DNA from: Myxococcota bacterium
GTDB lineage: Bacteria > Myxococcota_A > UBA9160 > UBA4427
Length of the DNA: 64,000 bases
Reading direction: 5' to 3'
Assembly (NCBI GenBank): GCA_030748735.1
Contig: JASMLK010000045.1
Coordinates: forward strand, 1-64,000
Shown here: positions 8,262 to 59,622 of the stretch, piece after piece
How positions within the stretch are numbered: the first letter of the stretch is position 1
Layout of the letters: each line of letters begins with the position of its first letter
Program-made: the position numbers and the translations under genes
Notes under the pieces: generated by a model
Seen by the model: the letters and a program-made list of their open reading frames with translations, nothing else
Database searches by the model: none
What the model was told of the DNA's origin: nothing

Positions 8262-8294
8262 CTAGCCCGGATGTTCATGAATAATGCGGGCTAG
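8262..8294. repeat. Palindromic REP-like element, copy 1 (33 bp)
   Basis: Outer arms of 11 bases (CTAGCCCGGAT and ATGCGGGCTAG, one mismatch) enclose a centre containing the palindrome TTCATGAA. Nearly identical copies occur at 10847-10879 and, in a longer form, at 59562-59622. It sits between the start of the Gfo/Idh/MocA gene and the end of a decayed beta-barrel gene. No T tract follows, so it is not a classical terminator. The repeated, intergenic, hairpin-forming nature suggests a REP or MITE family. Confidence 0.85.
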
Positions 8295-8322: not shown

Positions 8323-9170
8323 TCAGAAGCCCCATCCGATGTCGATGATGAGTCGAGGCATCACTCCGTCGTCCTTTTCGTTGCACTCGAACCCGCTGGG
8401 GCAATCGTCCCTTTGGAGTACGACACCATAGCTGGCCCCAGCCCCAAGGCCCACGTTCCAGCCGCTGGGCCACAGGTAGCGCCAACCCAATACTGCTCCC
8501 GTACGAAGCACTGTGCCGTCGCGAAGTTGCTTGCGCCCACTCGTGTCGTTGGAGATGGCGTGAATGATCCCGAGATGGGGTCCGACGAAGAAGCCGTTGT
8601 GAGGCGCTCTCGACCACCAATTGCCTTCGTCGGGCATTTCCGGGGGTGTCTCGGGCGCAGCCGGCATTGGTGTCAGCACGAGGCTCGCGACGTGTTGCGA
8701 GCGTACCTCGACGGCGAGCGTTTCGAACCTCAGTTCGTGACCAGCGCCGTGACCCGAAACACGAATGAGGGAGTCGACCGGAACGCTGACTTCGTTTTCG
8801 GACTGGTTGCGGATACGCAGGGGTGTTTCCGCGAGGCCCATGATGTCTGCTTCGTCGCGCGCAATCGCATGGCCCTGGATCGAAGTCCTTCGCGTCTCAT
8901 GACCGAGAAGCGGCCGTCTGCGCACGATCGCTTCCTCGAGCATGCGACTGCGCGGGTTCCAGTTGCCGCGAAGCTGCACCCGGTGACCGCGAAGCTCGCG
9001 ATCGAAGCCCAGGCGGTCTGCGGTGCGCCCCGTACCCGACCGACATACATCGTGTCGCGGCCGACGGGGCGCGCGACGTCCATGACGTGTGCGGGAGAGC
9101 CGGTCGACCGCAGGTCGATGCGTGACGCCACGATGCCGCCGCAACCCCGCGCCGCTTCTTCTCCTCGCAC
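8323..9170 (-). pseudogene. Beta-barrel outer-membrane-like protein, probably frameshifted
   Basis: The last ~200 codons read well: a putative extracytoplasmic segment, then alternating strands such as GFFVGPHLGII, TVLRTGAVLGWRYL, WNVGLGAGASYGVVL, and a final RLIIDIGWGF ending in Phe, as expected of an outer-membrane beta-barrel (DUF3575-like in style). Upstream of about position 9018 this frame becomes arginine-rich with poor codon choice, while a neighbouring frame (containing DVARPVGRDTMYVGRVRGAPQ) takes on high third-position GC. This suggests a frameshift near 9015-9025. No signal peptide or good ribosome-binding site can be found before the FAD gene upstream. An internal ATG at 8943 could start a 206-residue form. 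The original function is not recognisable beyond 'surface or membrane protein'. Confidence 0.45.
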
Positions 9171-9204
9171 GCCCCGCCTTCAGCATCGAAGTCGCAGCTG
9201 CCGT

Positions 9205-10683
9205 TCAGTCTTTGCGGCCCGCCACCGACTTGCCCGCGACGCGTCCGAAGTACGTCGCGTCGCCGACGCTCATCCCGCTGCCATAGCCCGCGGATGTCCG
9301 CGGCACGCCGCATGCAGTACGTCCTGCAGCGTACAGCCCCGGGATCACTTCGCGCTCCATCGTCAGGACCTCGCCCGTCGGCAACGTGTCGAGCCCGCCA
9401 AAAGTGAAGTAGGGAAAGAGTGCGCCGCTGCCCGGTGTGCAGTCGAGTGCCGCGTACGGCGGTTCGATCGGCTTCAGCCAGGCTTCGTGCTTGTGGAAGA
9501 GCGGGTCGTCGCCCTTGGCCGCGTGCTTGTTGTAGAACTCGATGGTGTGGCGAAGCATGTCGGGGTCGAGGCCGATCTCTTCGGCGAGCTCTTCGATCGT
9601 CTCACCCGTGCCCGCGATGTCGGCGTTCAAGAAGGGGGGATGTTCATAGTCGTCGTGGTTGACGATCAGGTAGATCCCCTTGCCACTCTGCTTCAGGATG
9701 TGATGCGCCATGCGCGCGTGGTAGATGTCTTCGTTGATGAAGCGCTGTGCCTGGGCGTTGACGAAGATGCCGAAGGTCAGTGAGCCCGGAGGATAGAAGG
9801 GCAGGGTGATGAAGGCTTCGTTCATGTGGAGCACCGCACCCCCCGCACCCTGGCCCATCAGGATGCCGTTGCCCGTGTCGCCCGGATTGCCGACCGGGAC
9901 GTTGCCGATGCTCGCCTGCGGTACGTGCTTCTCGAGCATCTTCTGATTCATCGCGAAGCCGCCCGCGCAGAGAATCACCCCGCGGCGTGCGCGCACCGTT
10001 CGTTCCTGGTTGTCGATGCGCACGACCAGACCGTGAATGCTGCCATCCTCGTCGGCGATCAGGGTCAGCGCTCGCGCGTTGTATTCCACGCGAATCGGAC
10101 GCTTCTCGACCTGCTCGGTGAGGACGCCCATCAGCATCGGGCCGCCGTTGTCGCCTTCGACTTCGAGGTTGTGACCGCGCGGGCAGGGCTTGGCGATTTC
10201 GCGGAAGGGGTAGGACTTCTCGTTGCCCGTGTAGAGCAGGCAGTCGTCGGTGACGGCCATGATGGCGCGCTCTTTGTATTCGCTGTTCTTGTACTTCGCG
10301 CCCATCTCGACCAACCAATCGAAGTGCTCGACCGAGTTGTCGCAGTACATGCGAATCTTGTCTTCGTCGGCGAGTTCGCCCTGGGCCGCCATCAAGAAGT
10401 TGAACATGTCTTCGGTGGTGTCTTCGTAGCCACAGGCTTTTTGCACCGAGGTGCCACCGCTGCCGCCCATGTAGACCTCTGCGCTCGACAGTGCCGTGGA
10501 GCCACCACTCGCTGCGCTCACTTCGAAGATGATGACGTCGGCGCCTGCGTCACTGGCCTCGATGGCCGCGCACGAACCCGCGCCGCCAAAGCCCACGATG
10601 GCCACGTCGGTTTCCATGTCCCAGCTCTCGACGCCGGCAAGTTTCTTGGGGCGGGTGGGGGTCGATTTCGAGGTCTCGCTCAC
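9205..10683 (-). CDS. FAD-dependent oxidoreductase, fumarate reductase / 3-ketosteroid dehydrogenase-like
   Basis: A 492-residue flavoprotein with an N-terminal dinucleotide motif VAIVGFGGAGSCAAIEA (about residues 27-43) and the second FAD motif near the C-terminus (SAGYGSGMSVGDATYFGRVAGKSVA). The ARGVILCAGGF stretch and QRFINEDIYH motif are typical of the fumarate reductase/flavocytochrome c flavoprotein group that also includes 3-oxosteroid 1-dehydrogenases. Such enzymes add or remove hydrogens across an activated C=C bond. It starts with GTG after a GAAAGGAAACG ribosome-binding site. It follows TetR, OYE-remnant and SnoaL-like genes on the same strand, opposite an LLM/OYE/acyl-CoA synthetase operon, so a role in degrading a cyclic or terpenoid compound is plausible but not proven. 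Confidence 0.87.
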   Translation of the reverse strand: MSETSKSTPTRPKKLAGVESWDMETDVAIVGFGGAGSCAAIEASDAGADVIIFEVSAASGGSTALSSAEVYMGGSGGTSVQKACGYEDTTEDMFNFLMAAQGELADEDKIRMYCDNSVEHFDWLVEMGAKYKNSEYKERAIMAVTDDCLLYTGNEKSYPFREIAKPCPRGHNLEVEGDNGGPMLMGVLTEQVEKRPIRVEYNARALTLIADEDGSIHGLVVRIDNQERTVRARRGVILCAGGFAMNQKMLEKHVPQASIGNVPVGNPGDTGNGILMGQGAGGAVLHMNEAFITLPFYPPGSLTFGIFVNAQAQRFINEDIYHARMAHHILKQSGKGIYLIVNHDDYEHPPFLNADIAGTGETIEELAEEIGLDPDMLRHTIEFYNKHAAKGDDPLFHKHEAWLKPIEPPYAALDCTPGSGALFPYFTFGGLDTLPTGEVLTMEREVIPGLYAAGRTACGVPRTSAGYGSGMSVGDATYFGRVAGKSVAGRKD

Positions 10684-10735: not shown

Positions 10736-10837
10736 TCAGCACTTTGCGATCACGTGTTCGGCGTAGCCGCGCAAAGCGGCGACCTTCTGCTCGAGGGTCT
10801 CGTTGTCCTGCTCGATGGTATAGGAGTTGCGGAAGCG
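10736..10837 (-). pseudogene. C-terminal remnant of a probable LLM-class oxidoreductase gene
   Basis: A 33-codon frame, closed by a stop directly upstream, encodes a tail reading ETLEQKVAALRGYAEHVIAKC. It resembles the C-terminal helix of the LLM proteins encoded across the divergent region (for example LPERLDRIKRFADEVIAKV at the end of the 16644-17513 gene). There is no start codon or N-terminal part. The palindromic repeat copy 2 begins 9 bases from its truncated end. I read it as the leftover of a deleted gene that once sat between the SnoaL-like and FAD genes. The similarity is short, so the family assignment is tentative. Confidence 0.4.
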
Positions 10838-10846
10838 TCATCGTCT

Positions 10847-10879
10847 CTAGCCCGGATGTTCATGAATAATCCGGGCTAG
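10847..10879. repeat. Palindromic REP-like element, copy 2 (33 bp)
   Basis: Perfect 11-base outer arms (CTAGCCCGGAT and ATCCGGGCTAG) around the same TTCATGAA-containing centre as copy 1; the two copies differ at a single base. It lies 43 bases beyond the stop of the SnoaL-like gene and 9 bases from the truncated end of a gene remnant. Confidence 0.88.
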
Positions 10880-10922
10880 GTAACCGAAGCGCATCGTGCT
10901 GCTCCTTCTGCGTTTCGCCGCG

Positions 10923-11333
10923 CTACGCGTCGGGCTGGTCGACGGACATGTCGGCCATCGTCCAGTAGCCGCGCAGGTTGGTGAGCAGGCCCGCGTCGTT
11001 CAGGAGGTAGGTGAAGATGCCGTGCACGTGGGTCGTGACACCATTGGCGAGCGTCGTGTGCAAGGTGAGTACGTGGGCGCTCTCGTTGCCCGCCGCGCGA
11101 GACATGTGGGTTTCGACGACGATCGATGCCGGGCCGATGAACTGGTCGTAGAACTTCGACACGGCTTCCTTGCCCTGCACGCCGAGGCCCGTGGGGTTGG
11201 TCACCGCTTCACCGATCGGGTCTTCGATGCAGATGTCGTCGGCCATCAGGCCCAGCCAGGCCTCCTTGTCGCTCGACTGAACGGCCTTCCATGAGTTCTG
11301 GGCAGCCTGTAACGCGGGATGAATTTCGCTCAT
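10923..11333 (-). CDS. SnoaL-like / nuclear transport factor 2-fold protein
   Basis: A 136-residue protein from the ATG that follows a GAAAGGAACCCCCG ribosome-binding site; the reading frame stays open further upstream but without such a site. Sequence features are those of the NTF2/SnoaL fold: an N-terminal helix (HPALQAAQNSWKAVQSSDKEAWLGLMADD), then strands beginning with ICIEDPIGEAVTNPTGLGVQGKEAVSKFYDQFI. Members include ketosteroid isomerases, polyketide cyclases and many proteins of unknown function. The Asp in ADDICIEDP is at the usual pocket position. It sits with TetR, an OYE remnant and an FAD dehydrogenase, a context like steroid or terpenoid degradation clusters. Whether it is catalytic is unknown. 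Confidence 0.75.
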   Translation of the reverse strand: MSEIHPALQAAQNSWKAVQSSDKEAWLGLMADDICIEDPIGEAVTNPTGLGVQGKEAVSKFYDQFIGPASIVVETHMSRAAGNESAHVLTLHTTLANGVTTHVHGIFTYLLNDAGLLTNLRGYWTMADMSVDQPDA

Positions 11334-11385: not shown

Positions 11386-11910
11386 CTAGAGTGCGTTCGC
11401 AACCTGTGCGCCTTCGAGCGTCGCCTTGCGAATCAAACCGAGGCCCGTGCAATCGCCGATCGCGTGCACGTCAGGAAGGCGATCCTTCAGTTCGTCGAAC
11501 AGACGCGTGCCGGGTTCGACCTGGCCGGCGAGGATGACGTGATCGGCGGGTACGAGTTTCTCGCGCGAAGACTCTAGCAAGAGGACGACGCCTTCCGGCT
11601 TGATGCGAGCGACCGAAACGCCCACGTTTACCGCCACCTTGGCGCGGTCCAGCGTCATCATGTGCTCGTCGCTCGCGAAGTGAAGCGAATTGGGTACTTC
11701 CTTGTGCTGCGCGTCGATCGACGAGGCACCGAGGGTAATCAGTGCAACACCTCCCTTCGCGCGTGCTTCGAAGTAGTCGATCGACCGCTGGGTTGGCTTG
11801 CCGTCGGGGGTGCCGAAGCTGTTTTCCATCGGCGACATCACGAGCCGATTGCGCAGCTCCATCTGGCCGATGCGAATGGGAGAGAAGAGAATCGAAGTGT
11901 CGGGCGACAT
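11386..11910 (-). pseudogene. NADH:flavin oxidoreductase (OYE / 2,4-dienoyl-CoA reductase type) with large in-frame internal deletion
   Basis: The 174-codon frame joins two parts that are far apart in full-length relatives. Residues 1 to about 85 match the start of the FMN TIM barrel (LFSPIRIGQMELRNRLVMSPMENSFG, then a YFEARAKGGVALITLGASSID region). Residues from about 90 match the very end of the C-terminal NAD-binding domain (VSVARIKPEGVVLLLESSRE, then VHAIGDCTGLG). The intact paralogue at 14607-16574 has 655 residues, so about 480 codons are missing, including the FMN-site centre, the [4Fe-4S] cysteines and both dinucleotide motifs. The reading frame survives the junction. Catalysis as an OYE enzyme is not possible. 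An assembly collapse between similar sequences is an alternative. Confidence 0.8.
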
Positions 11911-11924
11911 ACCCTCGGCCTCAC

Positions 11925-12572
11925 TCAGGACGCCGCGGCGTCGACGCAGAATGCGCGCTTGACCTGGGCTTCGAGGGCGTCGGCGACTTCGACCGTGTCC
12001 GTCACCATGCCCCCCTCGAGCCAGTGGGCCAATTCGACCTGTTGCATCGAGACGATCGTGCGCGAGATCAGCTGGGGATCGCGCGCGACCAGCACGCCTT
12101 CTTCGATGCAGCGCTCACATGCGGCGCGCAGCCGTTCGAGGGCCTGCCGCCAGGCTTCGGTCTGGCTGCGCGCGCCGCGCGCCATGGCTTCGGTGCCCCA
12201 GGTGAGCCCACCGTGCAGACGCAGGCGCAGAAACTCGGGTTGCTCGAGGAAGTAGAGGGTGGTTGCGCGCAGGCCGGCCAACATGGCTTCGAGCGGGTCG
12301 CTGAGTCCCTGGCTCTGCTCGATGGCGAGGTGATGCAGCGCTTCGTCGCCTTCGGTCTGTACGGCCTCGTAGATGGCACCCTTGCCGGGAAAGACGGAGT
12401 AGAGCGTCTGGAGCGACACCCCCGACCCCTCGGCGATTTCGCCGATCTTGGCGTCGTCGTACCCCTTTTCGGCGAAGACCGTGCGCGCCGCTTCGAGGAT
12501 CAGCTGGCGATAGAGCTCGGCCTTGGCCTGCTTTGCGGCCTTCTTGGCCTTGCCTCGGGCTGCTGCTGCCAC
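11925..12572 (-). CDS. TetR-family transcriptional regulator
   Basis: A 215-residue TetR regulator with a lysine/alanine-rich N-terminal arm followed by the helix-turn-helix (ILEAARTVFAEKGYDDAKIGEIAEGSGVSLQTLYSVFPGKGAIYEAV, about 25-70). The C-terminal ligand domain is unlike those of well-known members. It starts with GTG after an AGGAGTAGGAG site. A good promoter lies about 75 bases upstream, in the 200-base gap divergent from the LLM/OYE operon. Control of both that operon and its own strand is the usual TetR arrangement and is inferred. Genes on its own strand downstream include an OYE remnant 14 bases away. Confidence 0.92.
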   Translation of the reverse strand: MAAAARGKAKKAAKQAKAELYRQLILEAARTVFAEKGYDDAKIGEIAEGSGVSLQTLYSVFPGKGAIYEAVQTEGDEALHHLAIEQSQGLSDPLEAMLAGLRATTLYFLEQPEFLRLRLHGGLTWGTEAMARGARSQTEAWRQALERLRAACERCIEEGVLVARDPQLISRTIVSMQQVELAHWLEGGMVTDTVEVADALEAQVKRAFCVDAAAS

Positions 12573-14606: not shown

Positions 14607-16574
14607 ATGCCCGAACTCAGCTCGCTCTTCAGTCCCATCAAGATCAACCAGATGGAGCTTCCCAATCGCATCGTCATGGCGCCCATGACGGTCGACTACG
14701 CGCTCGACGACGAAACGCCTTCCGACCGCCAACTCGCGTACTACAGCGAACGTGCAGCGGGTGGGCCCGCGATGATCAACCTCGAAGTCTGCAGCGTCGA
14801 CGCGGACCATCGCTATCAGCAGCACTCGCTCGGTCTGCACAGTGACTTCCAGATCGAAAAGCACAAGAAGCTCGTCGACGTGATCCACGCCCACGGTGTG
14901 AAGTGCCAGCCCCAGCTCTCGCATCCGGGCCCGGAGTCGCTCGCTCCCTTCTACAAGCAGCTCCAGCCAATGGGCCCTTCGCCGGCGCGTGCGGAAACCA
15001 CCAGGCAGCTGTGTCGCGAGATCGCGCCCGAAGAGATCGAAGCCGTGATCGAGATGTATGGCGAAGCGGCGCGACGCTCCCGCGAAGCGGGCTACGACGG
15101 AATCGAACTCCACGCTGCGCATGGCTACATGATGTTGGGGTCGTTCCTTTCACCACTTCGCAACTTCCGCACCGACGAATATGCGGGCGGCAAGTTCGAA
15201 GGTCGCGCGAAGCTCTTGCTCGACGTACTGGCGCGGATTCGCCAGAAGGTGGGTGGCGACTATCCCATCACGCTTCGCATGTCGGGTTTCGAGCGGCAGA
15301 GCGGTGGGCGCGAGATCAACGACTCCCAACGCCTGGCGCCGCTTCTCGTCGATGCCGGCGTCGACTGTTTCCACGTGAGTGGCGGTGTGGGCGACGCCAA
15401 CATCACGCAGATCATCACGGGGCCGGAATACGGCGCCGGGTTCAATGTGTCGGCCGCTGAAGCCATCAAGCAGGTGGTCGATGTGCCGGTGCTCGTGGTC
15501 GGGCAGAACATGGATCCGGTCGCGGCGGATCGGCTCATCGAAGAGGGGCGCGTGGACATGATCGCGATGGCGCGTTCGCTGCTGTGCGATCCCGAACTCC
15601 CGAACAAGGCGAAGAGCGGTCGCCTGCGGGAGATCAACCGCTGCAACGTGTGCCAGGGCTGCACCGACATGATGACGTCCGAGTTCAATGGCGCAGCGTG
15701 TTCCCTCAACCCGCGCGCAGGCAAGGAAGCCGACTATCCCCTCGAAAAGGCCGCCGCTTCGAAGAAGGTCGTGGTCGTTGGCGGAGGCCCGGCTGGCATG
15801 GCGGCCGCGATGTACGCGAGCGACCGCGGGCACCAGGTCACCTTGCTCGAAAGAGAAGGCGAACTCGGCGGCGCGTTCCGCCTTGCTTCGACGCTCTTTC
15901 CCGGCAACCAGCTCTATCTGGACTTCCTGCGCGCCCGCATGGAAGACCTGCCGGTCGAAGTACGCCTCGAAACCGAAGCGAACGAAGCTTCGATCAAGGA
16001 ACTCGGTGCGGACGCCGTGATCGTTGCGACCGGCGGTCGTTTCACGAGCCCCGACATCGCGGGTGATGACGCCCCTAACGTGCTCAAGGGCAAGGCGGTT
16101 CTCGACCTCGTTGCACGCATGGGCGCCGACCCATCCGATGACGACCTGGGCCTCGAGGGACGCGTTGTGATCGTGGGCGCCAATCTCATCGGCATGGAAC
16201 TCGCCGAGGCGTTGGCGGCCCGGGGCAAGCAGGTGCACCTCGTCGAACCGAGCGGCCGCATGGCCATGCCCGCCGGCAAGAAGCGCCGCGCAGATCACTG
16301 CAAGCAGCTCGATCGCCTCGGCGTGCCGGTCAATACGGGTGTCGCGGTGAAGGAGATCACCGCGGAGGGCGTCGTGCTGTCCCTCGCCAAAGGCCGCGAG
16401 AGCACTGTACGCGCCGGTACGGTGATCCTCGTGGGCCACCCGGAGGCCGATTCCCTCCTCGAAGAGAAACTCGCGGGTGTGGCGGAGACCGTTCGGTCCA
16501 TCGGCGATGCCGTGAGTTTCGGTCTCACCCAGAACGCAGCGCGCGCAGCATTGGATGCAGCCTATTCGATTTAG
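14607..16574 (+). CDS. NADH:flavin oxidoreductase / 2,4-dienoyl-CoA reductase-type iron-sulfur flavoprotein
   Basis: A full-length 655-residue member. The FMN barrel (LFSPIKINQMELPNRIVMAPM, then ELHAAHGYMMLGSFLSPLRNFR) occupies about 1-340. An iron-sulfur segment follows, RCNVCQGC plus a later ACSLNP cysteine; its spacing is C-x2-C-x2-C-x12-C, slightly shifted from the C-x2-C-x3-C-x11-C of E. coli FadH. Then come FAD (VVVVGGGPAGMAAAMYA, about 390) and NADH (RVVIVGANLIGMELAEALAARG, about 520) motifs. Such enzymes reduce C=C bonds in dienoyl-CoA, enones, bile-acid steroids or terpenoids. It lies between LLM genes. The internally deleted relative at 11386 appears to be a decayed sister gene. Confidence 0.9.
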   Translation: MPELSSLFSPIKINQMELPNRIVMAPMTVDYALDDETPSDRQLAYYSERAAGGPAMINLEVCSVDADHRYQQHSLGLHSDFQIEKHKKLVDVIHAHGVKCQPQLSHPGPESLAPFYKQLQPMGPSPARAETTRQLCREIAPEEIEAVIEMYGEAARRSREAGYDGIELHAAHGYMMLGSFLSPLRNFRTDEYAGGKFEGRAKLLLDVLARIRQKVGGDYPITLRMSGFERQSGGREINDSQRLAPLLVDAGVDCFHVSGGVGDANITQIITGPEYGAGFNVSAAEAIKQVVDVPVLVVGQNMDPVAADRLIEEGRVDMIAMARSLLCDPELPNKAKSGRLREINRCNVCQGCTDMMTSEFNGAACSLNPRAGKEADYPLEKAAASKKVVVVGGGPAGMAAAMYASDRGHQVTLLEREGELGGAFRLASTLFPGNQLYLDFLRARMEDLPVEVRLETEANEASIKELGADAVIVATGGRFTSPDIAGDDAPNVLKGKAVLDLVARMGADPSDDDLGLEGRVVIVGANLIGMELAEALAARGKQVHLVEPSGRMAMPAGKKRRADHCKQLDRLGVPVNTGVAVKEITAEGVVLSLAKGRESTVRAGTVILVGHPEADSLLEEKLAGVAETVRSIGDAVSFGLTQNAARAALDAAYSI

Positions 16575-16643: not shown

Positions 16644-17513
16644 ATGCGCTTCACCCTGAACGTCACGATGCTCGACCCTGCGCAGTACATCCCGATCGCG
16701 CAGGAGGCCGAGAAGTGCGGCTTCTACGCTGTCAGCGTACCCGACAGCATCTTCTATCCCGAAGAAGCGATCGGCGAGTATCCGTATCACGAAGGGCGGG
16801 AGTTTCTCGAAGACAAGCCGTTCATCGAACCGCTGATCGCCATCGCCTCGATGGCCGCTTCGACCTCGACGCTGCACTTCAGCACCTTCGTGATCAAGCT
16901 CGCGATTCGCGACGCACTGATCAACGCGAAGACCGCACTCTCGACGGCCGTGATGTCGAACAACCGGCTTACGCTTGGCGTCGGGATCAGCCCCTGGGTC
17001 GACGACTTCCAGTACTGCAACGTGCCCCTCGAAGGTCGCGGCCAGCGCATGGACGAGATGATCGAGATCCTGCGCGGCGTGCAGAGCGGCGAGTACTTCG
17101 AATACCACGGGGAACACTTCGACTTCACGCGTCTCAAGATGTGTCCCGTCCCGACTGAGCCGATCAAGGTCACGGTGGGTGGTCATTCGCCAGCAGCGCT
17201 CCGCCGCGCCGCGCGCCTGGGCGACGGTTGGGTGGCCGCCAACGTGACGCGCGAGCAGATGCGTGGACTGCTCGGCATGCTCGACGGCTACCGCAAGGAG
17301 TTCGGCTCCGACAAGCGCGACGACTACATCGTGCAGGGCATGTTGAGCGACATCGAAGTCTTCGACCCGGCGGGCTACCGCGAAGGCGAGGACATGGGAC
17401 TCACCGACTGCACGATTTCGCCCTGGGGCGTCTACGACACCGAACAGATCGAGCTGCCCGAGCGGCTCGATCGCATCAAGCGCTTCGCCGACGAAGTGAT
17501 CGCAAAGGTCTGA
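16644..17513 (+). CDS. LLM-class flavin/F420-dependent oxidoreductase
   Basis: A 289-residue protein most similar by eye to the one starting at 12773: it shares the RFTLNVTMLDPAQYIPIAQEAEKCGFYAVSVPDS barrel start and the NNRLTLGVGISPWVDDFQYC loop. The IKVTVGGHSPAALRRAARLGDGWV block (about 173-196) binds the flavin-type cofactor. The gene is preceded by a stable hairpin and a GGAGG site. Its stop codon lies 5 bases before the ATG of the acyl-CoA synthetase, so the two are translationally coupled. It is likely a dehydrogenase or reductase acting on a CoA-activated or pre-activated substrate; this is context inference only. Confidence 0.88.
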   Translation: MRFTLNVTMLDPAQYIPIAQEAEKCGFYAVSVPDSIFYPEEAIGEYPYHEGREFLEDKPFIEPLIAIASMAASTSTLHFSTFVIKLAIRDALINAKTALSTAVMSNNRLTLGVGISPWVDDFQYCNVPLEGRGQRMDEMIEILRGVQSGEYFEYHGEHFDFTRLKMCPVPTEPIKVTVGGHSPAALRRAARLGDGWVAANVTREQMRGLLGMLDGYRKEFGSDKRDDYIVQGMLSDIEVFDPAGYREGEDMGLTDCTISPWGVYDTEQIELPERLDRIKRFADEVIAKV

Positions 17514-59561: not shown

Positions 59562-59622
59562 CTAGCCCGCATGATTCATGAACATCCTACTGCGACGGAT
59601 GTTCATGAATCATCCGGGCTAG
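59562..59622. repeat. Palindromic REP-like element, long copy 3 (61 bp)
   Basis: Two 26-base arms (left starting CTAGCCCGCATGATTCATGA, right ending ATGAATCATCCGGGCTAG) are inverted with one mismatch around TACTGCGAC. Each arm carries the TTCATGAA core of copies 1 and 2; those 33-bp copies look like this element with 28 internal bases removed. The right end supplies the TAG stop of the outer-membrane protein gene read on the minus strand. Confidence 0.88.

Follow-up and report, generated by a model that had tools for sequence, protein, structure and literature searches.

Is the short open frame at positions 11386-11910 of the window (the whole 64,000-nucleotide stretch of Myxococcota DNA that was analysed) a small gene in its own right or the residue of a large one? 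This 174-codon frame on the reverse strand has an ATG start and joins the two ends of an OYE-type reductase gene, called here OYE-A. Judged from its sequence, it is very probably a recent deletion pseudogene of an OYE/BaiCD-type gene, left by a non-polar deletion in a pathway arm that is being discarded. It is most likely one of two broken genes in the same operon and a case of ordinary genome decay. An earlier note on this DNA was right that two reductase ends are joined in frame behind a good start, but the ends measure 80 and 94 codons and not about 85 each. The features of the remnant and its intact paralogue are as follows.

11386..11910 (-): OYE-A remnant, an in-frame fusion of 174 codons (codons 1-80 and the last 94) plus stop
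11671..11910 (-): N-terminal piece, codons 1-80, the start of the Oxidored_FMN barrel
11386..11670 (-): C-terminal piece, 94 codons plus stop, the end of the pyridine-nucleotide/FAD domain
11666..11672 (-): junction word GCGACGA, 7 bp, which in the G002 orthologue flanks the lost segment on either side
14607..16574 (+): paralogous full-length OYE, 655 aa, also found in three other genomes of the genus

The search for the parent gene covered 60 genomes, the bacterium's own (G000) and 59 relatives. Both pieces of the remnant match opposite ends of one long frame, the parent-type gene, in G002, the MAG “Myxococcota bacterium isolate PL23a_bin.25”. G002 and G001 are two further species of the genus to which this Myxococcota bacterium belongs. 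Full-length OYE-A has 687 aa in G002 and 686 aa in G001, more than the 650 residues first given for the parent, and lies at the same locus position as the remnant; the intact same-locus orthologue that marks a deletion pseudogene is present in both of these close relatives. In tblastn the remnant is 81% identical to G002 over query residues 1-106, a match that runs past the junction, and 83% over residues 81-174. The corresponding values for G001 are 67% (residues 4-106) and 72% (residues 81-174).

The gene at 14607 had been taken for the intact sister of the remnant. It is indeed an intact full-length OYE, but a paralogue and not the parent, with 47% and 41% identity to the two ends of the remnant and 44% to OYE-A of G002. 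In trees built for each end, the remnant clusters with OYE-A orthologues, and the 14607 gene stands on the other side with six orthologues of its own; the separating branch has a support of 100/99 in both trees, for alignments of only 85 and 97 columns. Recombination with the paralogue as a source of the remnant is ruled out, since both ends group with OYE-A.

Compared with G002, the remnant is missing 1539 bp, or 513 codons (codons 81-593), which replaces the earlier figure of 480 codons. The remnant tracks OYE-A of G002 codon by codon through TTC GCG AGC GAC GA and, past the junction, continues as the far-end G002 codons GAC GAG CAC ATG. The join is located near 11670, within the word GCGACGA at 11666-11672, rather than near 11660. 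The G002 gene has two copies of this word, 1539 bp apart and in the same codon register, while the corresponding two places in G001 have only GACGA (5 bp) in common, and the 7-bp repeat relies on G002 standing in for the ancestor. Random breakpoints in the G002 gene share at least 7 bp with a frequency of about 0.0011 and at least 5 bp with a frequency of 0.011. The reading frame is intact because both copies are in the same register, which makes an in-frame loss unremarkable, where the earlier note had found it unusual.

A slip or annealing between the two copies of the short word, GCGACGA in G002, would have cut the 1539 bp out of OYE-A. The shared register would have kept the frame and made the deletion non-polar, with the TetR, SnoaL-like and FADox frames of the operon spared. 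As in other bacterial pseudogenes formed by deletion between short repeats, the loss is bounded by a short repeat of which one copy is retained; in contrast to these, the remnant happens to keep its frame. Illegitimate recombination is argued, in PMC2884548, to produce much of the small-scale diversity of bacteria. The farther apart two short repeats lie, the rarer are deletions between them, according to the title of a reference cited there, and 1539 bp, seen in one genome, is long for a 7-bp repeat, which counts against the slip. No account of the locus of the remnant was found among the papers listed in a literature search.

The lost codons 81-593 contain, in G002 numbering, HAAHGYM (170), CISCENC (347), ALECAVNP (362), GGGPGG (392) and GADLAA (556). 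The remnant is hence devoid of the FMN active-site region, the Fe-S cysteines (347-365) and both Rossmann GxGxxG-like motifs (392 and 556). Enzymes of the OYE/BaiCD-type family cannot work without these elements, and the remnant has probably lost the parts required for the ancestral function. The C-terminal piece retains IGDCTG, the counterpart of VGDCTG in G002. In Pfam the remnant matches only positions 2-84 of the 342 of PF00724 (residues 8-89, 55.1 bits), the first quarter of Oxidored_FMN, which falls short of a complete TIM barrel domain.

The intact G002 orthologue, as BaiCD/FadH-type OYE Fe-S flavoenzymes do, matches Oxidored_FMN and Pyr_redox_2, and it aligns to these enzymes; intact OYE-A resembles mycofactocin OYE-2, BaiCD, NCR (6qkg) and 2,4-dienoyl-CoA reductase (1ps9). 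The first ~90 residues of the remnant match the N-terminus of BaiCD/FadH-type enzymes, but unlike them it is missing the greater part of the barrel, the Fe-S cysteines and both GxGxxG-like motifs. It scores 58.1 of the 825 bits of the curated cut-off for BaiCD (NF041087) and 67.6 of 793 for TIGR03997, and intact OYE-A of G002 is also below both cut-offs, with 381.1 and 415.3 bits. The nearest family of a neighbouring AMP-ligase is the steroid-24-oyl-CoA synthetase CasG, again below the cut-off (620.5 of 750). Because the family scores lie below the curated cut-offs, a role of the operon in the catabolism of steroid-like compounds is only a guess.

The operon around the remnant contains three further genes with intact frames and a second relic, LLMx, which carries an inserted palindrome.

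11925..12572 (-): TetR-family regulator, upstream of the remnant, intact
10923..11330 (-): SnoaL/NTF2-like gene, downstream of the remnant, intact frame
10736..10894 (-): LLMx relic (LLM-class oxidoreductase), two genes downstream of OYE-A, with palindrome and deletion
10847..10879 (.): 33-nt CTAG-bounded palindrome in LLMx after codon 5, which brings an in-frame TAG
9205..10683 (-): FAD_binding_2 flavoprotein (FADox), last gene of the operon, intact

The gene order in G002 and G001 is TetR, OYE-A, SnoaL-like, LLMx and FADox, with the 14607 group divergent. G011 and G017 have TetR, OYE-A, LLMx and FADox together, with no SnoaL match at the OYE-A/LLMx locus. The locus of G003, a fourth species, is otherwise collinear and gave no match to TetR, OYE-A or LLMx (E 1e-10, rows above 38% identity). 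The best LLMx match in that genome, at 46%, is orthologous to the gene at 16644 of the window, and an LLMx orthologue was not found anywhere in it. Four of the six compared genomes with the locus have both OYE-A and LLMx intact, and in the other two both are gone or broken; the six (G000-G003, G011 and G017) were chosen for a FADox more than 75% identical, and the tally leaves out the OYE-like genes of G006, G007, G012, G016, G029 and G044, which lie in other or unread contexts. This distribution might indicate that OYE-A and LLMx served one step or branch. The operon arm would be in the course of being shed, with LLMx also destroyed here and both genes absent at the G003 locus. G000 retains an LLMx-like gene (57%) on another contig, and matches of about this identity exist in many relatives; some redundancy may therefore remain.

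LLMx, which is intact in G002, G001, G011 and G017, is plainly dead in the window. What is left of it are the first codons, the 33-nt palindrome, about a dozen nucleotides and the last 32 codons in a different frame. After SnoaL the sequence reads ATG CGC TTC GGT TAC, then the palindrome CTAGCCCGGATTATTCATGAACATCCGGGCTAG with its in-frame TAG, and then AGACGATGACG. The loss relative to G002 amounts to about 743 nt, which is not divisible by three and thus out of frame. The tail differs from G002 with a pS of 0.74 and a pN of 0.14, compared with 0.39 and 0.05 for the OYE-A remnant; these values would allow an older lesion in LLMx, 32 codons being too short for dating.

The palindrome belongs to a family of 33-34 nt with the consensus CTAG-CCCG(G/C)AT..TTCATGAA..AT(G/C)CGGG-CTAG, which occupies three sites in the window (8262-8294, 10847-10879 and about 59562-59622). 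Its minimal form has 13 copies in G000, none in three genus mates and a single copy, in G014, in the other 26 of the 30 genomes searched. The half-site CCCGGATN{0,4}TTCATGAA gave 64 matches in G000 and none for the reversed control. A stricter version of the palindrome end occurs in seven of the 60 genomes, including its own, and the closed forms measure about 37-184 nt. The site is uninterrupted in G002 and G001, where LLMx reads MRFGYLETM. The insert shows the marks of a MITE or palindromic repeat: it is multi-copy, relatives have the site without it, and its target is repeated. CTAG stands on either side of the insert in the window, where G002 and G001 have CTCGAA. The ancestral site in LLMx would have had a CTAG target, or CTAG may equally belong to the element.

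The small non-autonomous palindromic repeats and MITEs of bacteria described in PMC2229807 are likewise multi-copy palindromes with the same tetranucleotide on each side; as compared with these, the LLMx insert has only 33-34 nt in its shortest form and no recognised transposase partner. Inspection by eye of the long frames that flank 10 distinct copies (11 loci, two of which are the same site) did not reveal one. Relatives of the palindrome were absent from viral contigs, and plasmids gave five weak matches (E 0.2 or worse), which lie inside one longer copy and leave its end uncovered. Rfam found nothing at gathering scores in the window, and a literature search on four palindrome words found no match. 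Among mobile palindromes, this family may rank with the smallest. Several contigs of G000 (such as C31:120-140, C66, C75, C158) start about 120-140 bases inside a repeat copy, a pattern to be expected where a repeat interrupts assembly. The frame at 8323-9186 on the reverse strand ends, by eye, in an outer-membrane-protein-like C-terminus (...PRLIIDIGWGF), which is preceded by an arginine-rich, unnatural-looking stretch. A copy of the palindrome lies just downstream, and by eye the frame is possibly another frameshifted relic.

Selection on the remnant was estimated against G002. The N-terminal piece has a dN of 0.011 and a dS of 0.60 (ratio 0.018), and the C-terminal piece a dN of 0.095 and a dS of 0.52 (ratio 0.183). 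Eight intact neighbours have a dS of 0.52-0.96 and ratios of 0.056-0.173, which places the C-terminal piece slightly above every neighbour and the N-terminal piece below. On the window branch, with G001 as outgroup, the remnant has eight changes at codon positions 1 and 2 and 22 at position 3. This does not differ from the 157:378 of the eight pooled neighbours (p 0.84) and departs from neutrality (p about 9e-6), and an excess of non-synonymous change in the remnant was not found on this branch. So few non-synonymous changes are unlike a long-dead gene, and the pseudogene reading therefore needs the event to be young.

If the 7-8 changes on the branch are all neutral and later than the deletion, the time since the deletion comes to about 6-7% of the branch, with an upper 95% bound of 11-12%; this is a low estimate because sites where G001 differs from both are excluded. 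If all 20.7 non-synonymous differences from G002 are assigned to the dead gene, the figure is 18% (upper bound 25%); the age estimates assume a branch dS of 0.30. A young deletion is the plain reading, and constraint on the fused product is less likely. Among the neighbours, SnoaL has 17 changes at positions 1 and 2 to 10 at position 3 on the window branch, against 7:26 on the branch of G002 (p 0.001 in one of nine tests). This is no more than a hint that constraint has relaxed, with silent sites to the outgroup near saturation. The 14607 paralogue has the opposite pattern (p 0.002), while TetR and FADox have no difference.

The same constraint could be put down to a 174-aa product that is retained under selection in a new role, for example in binding a partner or a nucleotide of the former enzyme. 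The frame is open from its ATG, it has changed little at non-synonymous sites and the regulator and the downstream genes are intact. Such a role is nevertheless very unlikely, as the purifying signal can predate the deletion entirely, no complete domain is left and LLMx of the same operon is dead. The earlier note had proposed a small folded product put to a new use, and had named the same chimaera in relatives as the check on conservation. The matches listed for the 59 relatives do not include this fusion, so conservation cannot be shown, and the proposal gained no positive support. Single-sequence AlphaFold gave the remnant a mean pLDDT of 35, which leans against a fold in a weak test, as the control, the ordinary 135-aa neighbour SnoaL, reached just 50. 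That a selected mini-protein with a new fold arose in a single short-repeat slip, from the opening segment of the barrel and the terminal part of the FAD/NAD(P)H domain, is highly improbable.

The join might also come from the assembler, through distant parts being put together or a full-length allele being missed. The genome assembly (94.84% complete) is in 160 contigs and is probably a metagenome assembly. Against this, the two sides share just 7 bp, or 5 bp in G001, and overlaps of 7 bp are too short for k-mer joining; with so few bases in common, an assembly collapse is unlikely. A high-identity intact copy of OYE-A was not found by protein in the own assembly (18 of 18 candidates scored), and the missing middle, with G002 DNA as query, had no match on another contig, the best being the 14607 paralogue at 66% (40 of 197 candidates scored). 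A biological cause also fits the second lesion in the operon and the lack of both genes in G003, and an artefact is very doubtful. It is finally conceivable, and extremely unlikely, that the in-frame form was itself selected as non-polar, since it takes away the enzyme and leaves SnoaL and the FAD flavoprotein unharmed. FADox has kept its frame and its constraint, and the operon order is common to G002 and G001. However, a single event has a 1 in 3 chance of an in-frame outcome, the out-of-frame break in LLMx still has not led to the loss of FADox, and SnoaL has its own AAAGGA upstream of the start and itself carries signs of relaxed constraint.

The recent deletion pseudogene, which the earlier note had offered as its other option (a pseudogene just formed), is favoured because of the intact orthologues at the same position, the little non-synonymous change and the second gutted gene of the operon. 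The retained start codon and open frame, the few non-synonymous changes and the 5-bp word of G001 count against it. The remnant does not touch on any open question of long standing. Automated annotation may call the relic a normal 174-aa gene, given its open frame. For the biology of the genus, the locus would be a snapshot of pathway loss, with the operon arm intact in two species, half destroyed in this bacterium and missing from a third species.
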